Origin: Sphingomonadaceae bacterium
Lineage (GTDB): Bacteria; Pseudomonadota; Alphaproteobacteria; Sphingomonadales; Sphingomonadaceae
Length of the DNA: 34,688 bases
NCBI GenBank assembly: GCA_020630295.1
Contig: JAHDBR010000008.1
Span: forward strand, 30,121-64,808
Direction of reading: 5' to 3'
In this document: positions 9,538-12,145 of the stretch, piece by piece
Layout of the letters: each line of letters begins with the position of its first letter
Numbering within the stretch: the stretch's first letter is position 1
Made by a program: the position numbers and the translations under genes
Notes under the pieces: model-generated
Database searches by the model: none
Told to the model about the DNA's origin: nothing
What the model saw: only the letters and a program-made list of their open reading frames with translations

Positions 9538-10496
9538 GCTGCGTCTCTCGCCGGTATATCGGTCCGCACCGCATGGCGAAGAACCGCTGAACGGGCGCGC
9601 GGATTGCGGTCCAGTTCAGCCTTGCCTGCGCGCACCGCTTTAGAAACATCGCGGTAAACCGCTGGTGTCTGTTCAAGCTGGGGCAAATGACGCGAACCGC
9701 CACCTTTCGGTGCAGCCTCACGCAGATAGCGTTTCACAATCCGGTCTTCGAGGCTGTGGAAGCTGACGACGGCCAAGCGGCCACCCTCACCCAACAATTG
9801 CTCGGCTGCAGACAGACCTTCTTGCAGTTCATCAAGCTCCGCATTCACATGGATGCGAATGGCTTGGAAGCTGCGCGTCGCCGGATCCTTTGGCGCGCCG
9901 GGCCGATAGCCCAACGCCTTGCGCACCACGCGCGCAAGATCGCCCGTGGTTGCAAGCGGGCGAGCCGCGACAATTGCACGGGCCACGCGGCGTGACTGAC
10001 GCTCTTCACCGTAATTATAGAGAACATCAGCAATGACATTCTCATCCGCAGTGTTGAGAAAATCGGCGGCACTTTCGCCATCTTGGCTCATCCGCATATC
10101 GAGCGGCCCGTCGGAGGAGAACGCGAAACCGCGCTCCGCCTGATCAAGCTGCATCGACGAGACGCCAATATCCATGGTGACCCCGTCAATGCGGGCAACA
10201 CCCGCTTCGGCAATTGCGCCAACCATTTCGGAGAAGCGCCGCGCATGAAGCACCAGCCGCGGCGGCTGCTCTTGCGTTTCAGGCCATTTCTGGCCTTCTG
10301 AAATGGCATCGGGATCGCGGTCAAATGCGTGCACCACGGCGCCAGCATCCAGCAGCGCGCGAGTATAACCTCCGGCACCGAAAGTGGCGTCGATCATGAC
10401 ATCGCCAGGCTGCGGGCCCAAAGCCGCGATGACTTCATCCAGCAATACGGGAATATGCGGCGCGTTGGCCGGCACTTGCGAAACGGGCTGCGTCAT
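9534..10496 (-). CDS. rsmH: RsmH (MraW), 16S rRNA N4-methyltransferase (C1402)
   Basis: This SAM-dependent enzyme methylates N4 of C1402 in the 16S rRNA decoding centre. I use the ATG at 10496 ([19 protein letters not shown], 320 residues), which overlaps the mraZ stop by four bases. The frame continues 22 codons further upstream, but that segment lies inside mraZ and lacks family features. Motifs: HIPVLLDEV at the N-terminus, the SAM-binding [14 protein letters not shown] (about 36-49), the acidic FDRDP after it, [18 protein letters not shown], and near the end [15 protein letters not shown]. The length matches the family. The stop overlaps the ftsL start. Confidence 0.97.
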
Positions 10497-10993
10497 GCGC
10501 GCTTCCCCTTCGCATCCAGATCGGCCAGCAGGCTCTTGCATCCGGCAATTGCAGCCTTCCATTCATCGCCTTGGATTTGCAAAATTTGCGGATCCCAGAT
10601 TGTGAAAAACCGGCCGCCACCACGGAAAAACAGCTGATCGCCAATGAGGCCTTCGGATTTCAGGAAATCCGGCATGGTGAAGCGTCCGCTATCGTCGAAC
10701 GGAATTTTCTCGAACCCGAAAAGCTGGCTGGCGCGCAGCTCACGGTCATATTCGCGGCCAAGACGCAAGGCGGCATCTTCTTCGCGGTCCAGCTGGCTCT
10801 CCAGCTCCGCTTCGCGCGAAAGCCCGAAACCGACGAGGCAATCCCAGCGGTCATGTTTGGCAAGGCACAAGATGCGTTTGTCATCGCTGGATGCGCGGAC
10901 AGTTTTGCGAAAATCGGAAGGCACAACGAACCGGCCCTTGTCACCCATAAGGGTCAAGGCTTGTCCGCTATAACTATGAAGCGCTCCCGCCAC
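10493..10993 (-). CDS. mraZ: MraZ, DNA-binding transcriptional regulator of the dcw cluster
   Basis: MraZ is a double SpoVT/AbrB-fold protein that binds its own promoter region in other bacteria and represses the dcw cluster. The 166-residue protein has two related halves: the first contains [16 protein letters not shown] (about 15-30), the second [14 protein letters not shown]-like sequence near residues 95-112, each matching the DxKGRxxLP core of the fold. The start is a GTG at 10993 with a purine-rich GAGGGTAGGG stretch just before it. The gene is first in the cluster and its stop overlaps rsmH by four bases. A gene-free region with phased GGG motifs lies upstream and is a natural candidate for its operator. 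Confidence 0.94.
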
Positions 10994-11051
10994 TTCGCCC
11001 TACCCTCTGTTCGATCCAAACTCCCCGCAGACACATCTTCCCCGTTGCCGC

Positions 11052-11067
11052 CCGCGCATAGGCGCGG
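11052..11067 (-). other. GC hairpin in the presumed mraZ leader
   Basis: On the minus strand, CCGCGC, a four-base loop CTAT, then GCGCGG form a perfect 6-bp stem about 60 bases before the mraZ GTG. No T-run follows, so it is not a typical terminator. It could be a leader structure, but function is unknown. Confidence 0.3.
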
Positions 11068-11143
11068 TAGCTCACCATGAAGAAGCATGATGCAGCACAA
11101 GACGGTCTGTCTGATGGAGATTGGTATTAACTTGCCATTCACG

Positions 11144-11177
11144 GGGATGGAAGGGAAAATTAAGGGATTAATGGGGA
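11144..11177 (+). promoter_or_regulatory. GGGA repeat cluster in the mraZ upstream region (plus orientation)
   Basis: Four GGGA words start at 11144, 11153, 11164 and 11174, spaced 9, 11 and 10 bases. The last two fit the pattern of a GGG-containing pentamer, a 5-base spacer and another pentamer exactly. They point away from mraZ, opposite to the second cluster at 11234-11321. Possible MraZ binding boxes; inferred from spacing only. Confidence 0.4.
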
Positions 11178-11223
11178 TTGATTGCTAAACTACTGTTTTA
11201 AATATATTTTTATCCTTAACTTT

Positions 11224-11252
11224 ATTGTTGAGAACCCGTGAAATCCCGGCAA
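11224..11252 (-). promoter_or_regulatory. weak candidate sigma-70 type promoter for mraZ
   Basis: Reading toward mraZ, TTGCCG (11252-11247) and AACAAT (11229-11224) are separated by exactly 17 bases, a poor but correctly spaced -35/-10 pair. The pair of GGG boxes at 11234-11248 falls in its spacer, which would suit repression by MraZ. It predicts a leader of about 220 bases. Other placements are possible. Confidence 0.25.
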
Positions 11253-11321
11253 AATTCGGCTTCATCCCGTCGAATCCCCGAAAAAAACCCAGATTTTCAA
11301 TACCTGTCCCGTAATATCCCC
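11234..11321 (-). promoter_or_regulatory. Phased GGG-box array, candidate MraZ operator
   Basis: Read toward mraZ, this stretch has three pairs of pentamers of form nGGGN separated by exactly 5 bases: GGGGA/CGGGA (11321-11317 and 11311-11307), GGGGA/CGGGA (11279-11275 and 11269-11265) and CGGGA/CGGGT (11248-11244 and 11238-11234), plus a single TGGGT (11291-11287). Successive GGG cores lie close to multiples of 10-11 bases apart, so they would face one side of the helix. E. coli MraZ is known to bind TGGGN direct repeats with 5-base spacers, so the arrangement matches although the first base differs. Confidence 0.5.
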
Positions 11322-11329
11322 GAACAAGT

Positions 11330-11350
11330 CTCGGGTTGCTCGGTCCCGAG
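11330..11350. other. hairpin just after the end of the GldG-like gene
   Basis: CTCGGG and CCCGAG flank a 9-base loop, immediately beyond the stop at 11354 of the minus-strand gene. There is no T-run, so a role as terminator is uncertain; it also borders the GGG-box array. Confidence 0.3.
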
Positions 11351-11353
11351 CTA

Positions 11354-12145
11354 TCAATCCAGATCAAATGCTTGATTTACAAGCACCGACAGCGCCGTTG
11401 CAGCTTCCTCACCTTGCTGCCTGGCATCGAGAAGAGCCGCATCAGCCACGACCAGCGCGCGGCCTTTACCTACGCTACACTCTGCGATGACACCGCCTGC
11501 TGTCAGCTCACAGTTTGCAAATTCAGTCGGGACTAGAATAAACTGACCCGGCACCTCGACCGGAATGGCCGCGCCATTCCAATCTACAACTTCGCCTGCA
11601 TCAGAGTGATCATGCGCCTGATCGACAAGTTCAGTGGCGAGGCCCCACCTGCTGAGCAACGGTGAGAGAAGCGCGATTGCCTCTGGCCGGCGTTTGTCAC
11701 CAATGCCAAATTCCGAATGCGCAGTCAGTAACGGATCCGCGAAGATCAGCGCGCGCCCTCCGGCCCGCAGCCAATCATCCAGCGCAGCAAGATCAGCAGG
11801 CGGAAGCGCCGGCGGCTGGGCCAGAATGAGGAAATTCAATCGGGCGAGCGCGGCCGATGGCACTGCGCTTTGATCATCCGCCAGCACATCCAGTGGCTCA
11901 AGAACAAATCGTCGCTCCAATTCCGCCCTGACCCAATGGCTCTCGTCACTCTCTGATAAAGCCGCAGCGAAATCGGTGCTTTCGGCCCAGAGGATCGGCA
12001 AAGAAGTAATAAGCCCGACTTCGCTTTTTGCGCCCGCAACTGCGGTTTTATTCGAAGCTCCGCTATTGCCCGCCGCGAACCATAAAAACAGGGCGGCCAC
12101 GATGCTCATAACAAGCCCTGCCAATACCGCCCGCCGGGTCTGCAT
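11354..12145 (-). CDS. membrane-anchored protein with GldG-like domain, function unknown
   Basis: I do not recognise a specific function. The 263-residue protein begins with MQTRR and a hydrophobic span (about 8-25) that could be an anchor or uncleaved signal. The rest is periplasmic-type sequence with alternating strands and helices. The stretch LDDWLRAGGRALIFADPLL (around residues 125-143) resembles the GldG/IFT52-like domain found in auxiliary subunits of ABC transporters linked to gliding or unknown export, in which a sentence-like pattern of hydrophobic strand, small loop and D-P occurs. No ABC ATPase or permease lies beside it. Its ATG shares one base with the stop of the upstream 118-residue gene (TAATG), so the two are probably made together. 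The family suggestion is tentative. Confidence 0.7.
   Translation of the reverse strand: MQTRRAVLAGLVMSIVAALFLWFAAGNSGASNKTAVAGAKSEVGLITSLPILWAESTDFAAALSESDESHWVRAELERRFVLEPLDVLADDQSAVPSAALARLNFLILAQPPALPPADLAALDDWLRAGGRALIFADPLLTAHSEFGIGDKRRPEAIALLSPLLSRWGLATELVDQAHDHSDAGEVVDWNGAAIPVEVPGQFILVPTEFANCELTAGGVIAECSVGKGRALVVADAALLDARQQGEEAATALSVLVNQAFDLD

Follow-up and report, generated by a model that had tools for sequence, protein, structure and literature searches.

A candidate bipartite MraZ operator with helically phased distal boxes, and a candidate leader RNA, upstream of mraZ in part of the Sphingomonadaceae

Repeated GGG words in the gap before mraZ

MraZ forms rings and heads the division and cell-wall cluster in many bacteria; why it forms rings and why its boxes are repeated as single units are both unsettled. 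The window, a stretch of 34,688 nucleotides from a Sphingomonadaceae genome, carries a mraZ gene preceded by GGG words in two orientations, which raises the question of whether these words form one operator and how separate parts of it could act together. The gene (10494..10993 on the - strand, GTG start at 10993) encodes the presumed regulator, recognised by profile and structure matches to MraZ. Taken alone, the protein scores 18.1 bits against a Pfam cut-off of 23 and 46.7 bits against an NCBIfam cut-off of 162, that is below both. By using a profile of 26 aligned relatives, E. coli MraZ included, we matched the MraZ structures 1n0e (E 2.6e-10), 9qlr, 9qlg and 9sx6. Also, an AlphaFold model of the window protein (mean pLDDT 83.9, built with 11 sequences) matched only MraZ chains at E <= 0.001, namely 16 chains that include M. 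genitalium MraZ on its promoter, with 9sz7_B at E 1.2e-7. R21 and R104 are invariant among the 26 MraZ sequences and correspond to E. coli R15 and R86, which we take to be the DNA-binding arginines. The array described below lies directly upstream, at the head of the dcw cluster, and is followed by MraZ, then RsmH, then a PBP2/FtsI-type transpeptidase. By MraZ identity, the nearest named relatives are Pontixanthobacter luteolus (87%), an Erythrobacter MAG (73%), P. aquaemixtae (72%) and Pontixanthobacter sp. CEM42 (70%).

On the other side of the gap, the gene at 11354-12145 (-) matches ABC_transp_aux, and its DUF4350 match is below the cut-off. The longest open frame upstream lies on the same strand in 40 of 52 loci, a mechanical orientation call that we kept out of the argument.

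In the gap between the two genes (10994-11353), GGG runs start on the mraZ (-) strand at 11321/11320, 11310, 11290, 11279/11278, 11268, 11247 and 11237 (seven runs), and CCC runs, which are GGG on the + strand, start on the - strand at 11176/11175, 11166, 11155 and 11146/11145 (four runs). The first-pass annotation had reported eleven GGG cores, and the run listing, which places them within 11143-11321, confirms their count, coordinates, pairing and distances: on the mraZ strand there are three pairs at exact 10-base steps (11320/11310, 11278/11268 and 11247/11237, which leave a 5-base spacer between 5-letter words) plus one single, then four boxes in the opposite orientation at 11144-11177, the whole lying about 150-330 bases from the start codon. 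It had passed over six other GGG in the gap (11347, 11053, 11043, 11026, 11005 and 11000) and a CCC at 11335. Its description of the gap as gene-free is right in that no listed ORF of at least 80 aa lies wholly inside, and needs correcting in that an antisense ORF (10571-11080, +) reaches in.

The cores had also been said to lie near multiples of 10-11 bases. We counted eight run pairs at 10- or 11-base steps in the gap (five GGG, one of which, 11053/11043, sits in the leader, and three CCC); 5000 dinucleotide shuffles gave 0.66 on average and never reached eight. Chance or base composition could be invoked, as the region is rich in G-runs and single pairs do arise by chance elsewhere in family genomes. 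We give this explanation practically no weight: it is refuted by these shuffles and by the motif information, the conservation and the one-per-genus phasing given below.

What looks like the main part of the site is the proximal array, four 10-bp MraZ-type boxes at 11138..11180 on the + strand, opposite to mraZ, identified from the run listing and a weight matrix, with GGG cores at 11143-11146, 11153-11155, 11164-11166 and 11173-11176. In the weight matrix, which reads TCCCGTAAAT on the mraZ strand, four boxes recur exactly every 10 bases. We scored it on set E, the 152 family regions with the most similar MraZ (L001-L025 and L058-L184; 150 after removal of two near duplicates): 150 of 151 regions exceeded the 99% shuffle level, and the remaining one, at first read on the wrong strand, scored 14.7 once turned. 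Searched against the genome from which the window comes (2.44 Mb, 88 contigs), the four-box pattern is matched exactly just once, at mraZ. Since 19 of 29 class-level regions also have a three-box array, mostly of CCCAT boxes, the proximal array is old and general, and the four boxes that had been singled out as opposite look like an ordinary alphaproteobacterial MraZ operator.

Comparison with known MraZ sites agrees with this assignment on several points. First, as in E. coli, GGG-core direct repeats recur every 10 bp before mraZ; in E. coli MG1655 we read three boxes at 10-bp steps, TGGGAaattgTGGGGcaaagTGGGA. The E. coli boxes run in the same direction as mraZ and lie close to the ATG, whereas here there are four, reversed and about 150-185 bases upstream. 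The number of boxes, which the first-pass annotation had called unusual, is so relative to E. coli and is the rule within this clade. Second, the M. genitalium MraZ promoter (PDB 9sz7 and 9r4j, by their titles) likewise has four boxes, besides the fold match; its box letters, given as AAAGTG[T/G] in the part of PMC8475190 available to us, are unlike those found here. Third, the B. cenocepacia MraZ site is described, in the accessible part of PMC7761207, as four 7-base repeats with 3-base spacers, that is 10-bp steps, and was gel-shifted with purified MraZ; that account places a single array downstream of the -10, over the transcription start, whereas the site here has two parts and would lie over the -35. 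The proximal array thus has at least three direct repeats with a G core at 10-bp steps, as expected of a MraZ operator. It has no T before GGG (TGGG, or the GTG core of E. coli, B. subtilis and mycoplasmas), and we therefore class the site as a variant of the MraZ operator.

Inverted distal pairs and their helical phasing

Upstream of the array, on the - strand and facing the other way, are two distal pairs: pair 1, GGGGATATTACGGGA, at 11307..11321 (score 26.5, 144 bp from the array) and pair 2, GGGGATTCGACGGGA, at 11265..11279 (score 17.1, 102 bp from the array), which lie 42 bp, or four turns, from each other. Both are conserved in eight congeners, whose alignment also preserves the four-box array. 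A third pair, CGGGATTTCACGGGT, at 11234..11248, 71 bp from the array and in phase with it, scored 12.8, below our cut-off of 14, and its two boxes (11247/11237) do not stay together as a pair at the corresponding position of the other seven congeners. The single GGG at 11288..11290 aligns with GGAGTC in six of the eight congeners and is probably not a box. Conservation in close relatives, the test set beforehand for these boxes as an operator, was therefore clearly positive for the outer pairs and the four-box array, here and in the wider clade below, and the single box and the third pair have to be taken out. Between distal pairs and array, GTTAAGGATA at about 11205-11218 (-) is kept in most of the eight congeners, and GTTAA often occurs 44 bp from the array.

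By searching upstream of the array, we found a distal motif, TCGGGGAAATTGCGGGAAA, with 21.5 bits, compared with 11.1-11.7 bits in five runs on shuffled sets. At the score cut-off of 14, about the 99% shuffle level (11.3-14.2 across five shuffled sets), 144 of 150 E regions have at least one distal pair (one in 88, two in 42 and three to five in 14), and six regions lack it. We then used a plain rule, GGG[AG], 6-7 bases, GGG, at most 220 bp upstream of a three-box array, leaving out the regions with no three-box chain (9 of 152 in E, 11 of 31 in set D, which gathers the more distant family members L026-L056, and 10 of 29 at class level) and one short class-level locus. Such a pair occurs in 136 of 143 E regions (15.9% of shuffles), compared with 3 of 20 D regions (7.7% of shuffles) and 1 of 19 class-level regions (2.9%). 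A CCC pair facing the opposite way was found in 7 of 143 E regions (2.9% of shuffles). As judged from these sequence counts, it is the clade of Pontixanthobacter, Croceicoccus, Novosphingobium and relatives that gained the inverted distal pair. Adjacent inverted pairs are seen in two D regions (L042 and L052) that fall outside the plain-rule count for want of a three-box chain, and in L197, one of the class-level genomes from beyond the family, an inverted GGG pair stands 154 bp from the array, a possible independent case.

The pair pattern GGGGAWNNNNCGGGA has two matches in the whole 2.44-Mb genome, which are distal pairs 1 and 2. We rejected the idea that such pairs are unique to mraZ as a general trait: true in the window's genome, it fails in 59 family genomes, which have 0-10 pattern matches each, many of the listed places being far from mraZ. 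Loosening the pattern brings the count in the window's genome to 21, of which one match lies at mraZ.

The distal unit (TCGGGGAAATTGCGGGA) closely resembles the proximal unit reversed (TACGGGAATTTACGGGA): the column frequencies of the two correlate at 0.86, compared with at most 0.43 at other shifts and -0.32 when the distal motif is reversed.

Then, we measured the distance from the array to the nearest distal pair in the 144 regions that have one. It is 92-187 bp in 138 of them and 29, 249, 279 and 320 bp (three times) in the other six, and the distances fall into clusters at 92-93, 101-104, 109-114, 122-125, 133-136, 143-147, 153-158 and 165-169 bp. Pooled over all 144, the Rayleigh z is 74.5 at a period of 10.5 bp, and 126 of the distances lie within 2 bp of one phase, where 38% are expected. 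The three window pairs (144, 102 and 71 bp) are all in phase. The pooled genomes are related and not independent, and we therefore drew one genome per genus (n = 41 of 42 genera, those with a distal pair): the median z was about 18.2 and the minimum 13.0 in 2000 draws, whereas 5000 jittered sets, also one per genus, reached at most 8.6. With the best-scoring in place of the nearest pair, the one-per-genus median was 13.4 and the minimum 7.9. Spacer lengths vary inside genera too, in steps of about 10.5.

Control words tell how much of this signal is general. First, one per genus, z was 0.5 for CCC, 0.6 for CC, 0.8 for GG and for CGC and 1.5 for lone GGG. Second, it was 3.1 for AAAA and for GGGA outside pairs, and 4.7 for TTTT, against 18.3 for the distal pair in the same comparison. 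Third, when pooled, lone GGG outside pairs (26.7) and TTTT (25.2) were phased as well, so that ancestry, decayed boxes or bent DNA account for some of the pooled signal. The T- and A-tracts of the set E spacers share the periodicity of the boxes, offset by about 3 bp past the GGG phase; their phasing is weaker, and bent DNA or decayed boxes may contribute. A control with the 3' arm of the leader gave z 11 at 10.5 bp and 22 at 12.4, and is uninformative because its distance hardly varies.

Putative promoter and leader RNA

At a fixed offset from the array, 8-10 in 143 of 150 regions, lies a conserved element, CGGGTTAAAACC...CCATCGGACA, in which we place the putative -10, TAATAC (11124..11129, -). 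The putative -35, TTCCAT (11147..11152, -), stands 17 bp before it, between boxes 3 and 4, in strongly conserved TT..T columns. Transcription would then start near 11117. A scan with the E. coli-type consensus gave no promoter-like site on the mraZ strand, and the proposed promoter itself misfits that consensus.

From this putative start, a leader RNA of about 94 nt (11024..11117, -) would fold into an outer helix, an inner helix and two hairpins around a three-way junction, leaving the region of the start codon uncovered. In 31 aligned leaders, 19 of 24 pairs change on both sides and 85.9% of the cells pair (77.6% when shuffled, at most 55.0% when slid); when 98 rows were fitted to the model (three had been read on the wrong strand), 23 of 24 pairs change on both sides with a covariation of 0.499 (0.231 shuffled, at most 0.144 slid). 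The fold was derived from column-pair statistics and counted first on that same alignment and then on a model-fitted one, so that both counts are biased in its favour. RNAalifold returned one hairpin only on the first alignment, the full fold having come from the column-pair statistics. The window leader matches the covariance model at 82 bits and, folded alone, gives a modest z of -1.92, with 7 of 200 shuffles at least as good.

The distribution of the leader points to a clade-limited element. Within set E its model matched 45 of the 52 longer loci and 95 of another 100; in set D, none of 31 loci gave a match. The same conserved RNA is seen for instance at 1372-1466 of L002. Genome-wide, 41 of 119 family genomes have it, and 40 of the 42 matches lie directly upstream of mraZ places; the other two are one in G045 (E 0.0037), which lies elsewhere than mraZ, and one in G122. 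Among 73 genomes from other families of the order, the model had no match. Rfam had none in the window at gathering score, and at E <= 1 in five loci its sole match was a flavivirus stem-loop outside the leader (22.9 of 38.3 bits). Together these data make the leader a candidate for a new cis-acting RNA that is confined to part of the family. The GGG pair at 11040-11053 (-), at a 10-base step, falls inside its helices, and its conservation may stem from the RNA.

Like UpsM of Rhodobacter sphaeroides, which the accessible part of PMC5089854 describes as a dcw leader with a 268-nt UTR, ending in a terminator that makes an sRNA, this is an extended structured mraZ 5' UTR in an alphaproteobacterium. 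Unlike UpsM, the UTR predicted here is about 124 nt with another fold, and we found no terminator-like site within 10950-11400, which speaks against a terminator-sRNA of the UpsM type for this leader.

Possible roles of MraZ at the two parts

The MraZ protein itself gives a further link to the boxes. Throughout this clade the Asp of its loop motif DxKGR, four residues before E. coli R15, is replaced by Gly, in one case by Ser, whereas the arginines never vary; in the window protein this position is residue 17 (near 10945), and the exchange may represent a natural change of specificity. A T precedes GGG in 3 of 192 boxes where the loop has Gly or Ser, compared with 62 of 93 where Asp is kept. 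The co-variation is imperfect: T boxes are few or missing in L023-L025 (more distant), L027 and L028, although the Asp is retained there. The first-pass annotation had held that the geometry fits MraZ even though the first base is mostly C or G; the geometry stands, and the missing T goes together with a changed residue in the DNA-binding loop. In addition, the phased array is absent from the 620 bp upstream of rsmH in four genomes (L188-L191) of one genus without a MraZ match, the loss of MraZ and of the array coinciding in that genus only. A second genus (g94, three genomes), considered at one time as MraZ-less, was dropped from this test: the frame before its rsmH reads as a diverged MraZ. 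Thus, the shared motif, the co-variation with the loop residue and the absence of the array in the four MraZ-less genomes point to MraZ as a protein that would bridge both parts and loop the promoter region.

These observations support the earlier proposal of an extended MraZ operator and refine it, as far as sequence can tell, into a main array plus a clade-specific inverted part. Our preferred reading, which we consider fairly likely, is that the two form a bipartite MraZ operator, proximal array plus inverted, helically phased distal pairs, with MraZ looping the DNA between them. MraZ on the four boxes (11143-11177) would cover the -35 of the dcw promoter and repress mraZ and the genes behind it. 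The distal pairs, about 70-190 bp upstream and facing the other way, would be held either by more subunits of the ring that MraZ forms on the four boxes or by another ring, and looping out the intervening DNA could make repression stronger or more cooperative. MraZ binding, the position of the promoter and the looping are all predicted here, as is the sign of regulation, which we take over from MraZ repression in E. coli. MraZ forms rings, so that a ring seated on the proximal array would still have free subunits with which to contact a distal pair; alternatively, two rings could meet. Mention of an octameric toroid in the accessible part of PMC7761207 is consistent with this.

One motif, facing arrays, a variable distance and a fixed helical face are together the classic mark of a looping repressor. 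The DNA-looping operators of lac, gal and deo have two sites per regulator at whole helical turns, and the present locus resembles them in its two candidate sites, the distant second one recognised by motif only, and in their whole-turn spacing; those operators are palindromic, whereas here arrays of single boxes would face each other for a ring-forming MraZ. The E. coli operator has no distal part in the 130 bases that we read above its boxes, in contrast to the distal pairs here. Nor is a second inverted part mentioned for the M. genitalium operator in the part of PMC8475190 available to us. Our searches of openly licensed PMC papers turned up no account of looping by MraZ or of this leader.

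Ranked next, and in our view rather unlikely, is that MraZ binds both parts independently, the distal pairs being auxiliary or storage sites with no loop and the phasing a product of box gain and loss in units of 10-11 bp. In several clade members the distal boxes do number three or more and follow each other every 10 bp or so, and the phase is shared by T/A-tracts in the spacer and by stray GGGA words, which is what decayed boxes would show. Independent binding leaves unexplained why the parts face each other, the opposite CCC pair being so much rarer than the inverted one (7 against 136 of 143), and why the phase is kept across genera whose spacer lengths differ.

Another protein with a similar GGG motif, an activator or a nucleoid protein, might instead occupy the distal pairs at a fixed helix face to the promoter. 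An activator also fits a fixed face with variable distance, and the binding of MraZ is itself a prediction; we nevertheless hold this to be improbable, since the distal motif is the proximal unit reversed, down to the base before GGG, and neither kind of array is left in the four MraZ-less genomes.

Finally, the G-tracts could control mraZ as a G-quadruplex. In the part of PMC11796246 available to us, a motif in the S. aureus mraZ promoter region is reported to form a quadruplex and is proposed to control mraZ; that motif may overlap MraZ boxes. The proximal array does offer four G3 tracts, with loops of 6-8 bases where the criterion allows at most 7. Yet a quadruplex accounts neither for the 10-bp steps and the conserved A/T letters between the cores nor for the register with two-tract distal pairs and the co-variation with a MraZ residue, and we find it very hard to credit.

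We keep looping by MraZ as the first reading. In its most specific form, which to us is evenly balanced between right and wrong, one MraZ ring or two would clamp the facing arrays around a loop of about 70-190 bp in whole turns, an arrangement that evolved in an Erythrobacter/Novosphingobium-like clade with a changed MraZ loop and a new structured leader as a second layer of control.

If this is true, MraZ rings join separate arrays and loop the promoter, which would be a looping mode for a near-universal regulator. Two inverted arrays that keep strict helical register in a natural operator suggest a testable role for MraZ rings, and the change of Asp to Gly in the MraZ loop together with the loss of T from the box would be a natural experiment on DNA recognition. 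The same mraZ leader would add a new candidate RNA element to the control of division and cell-wall genes in this part of the family.
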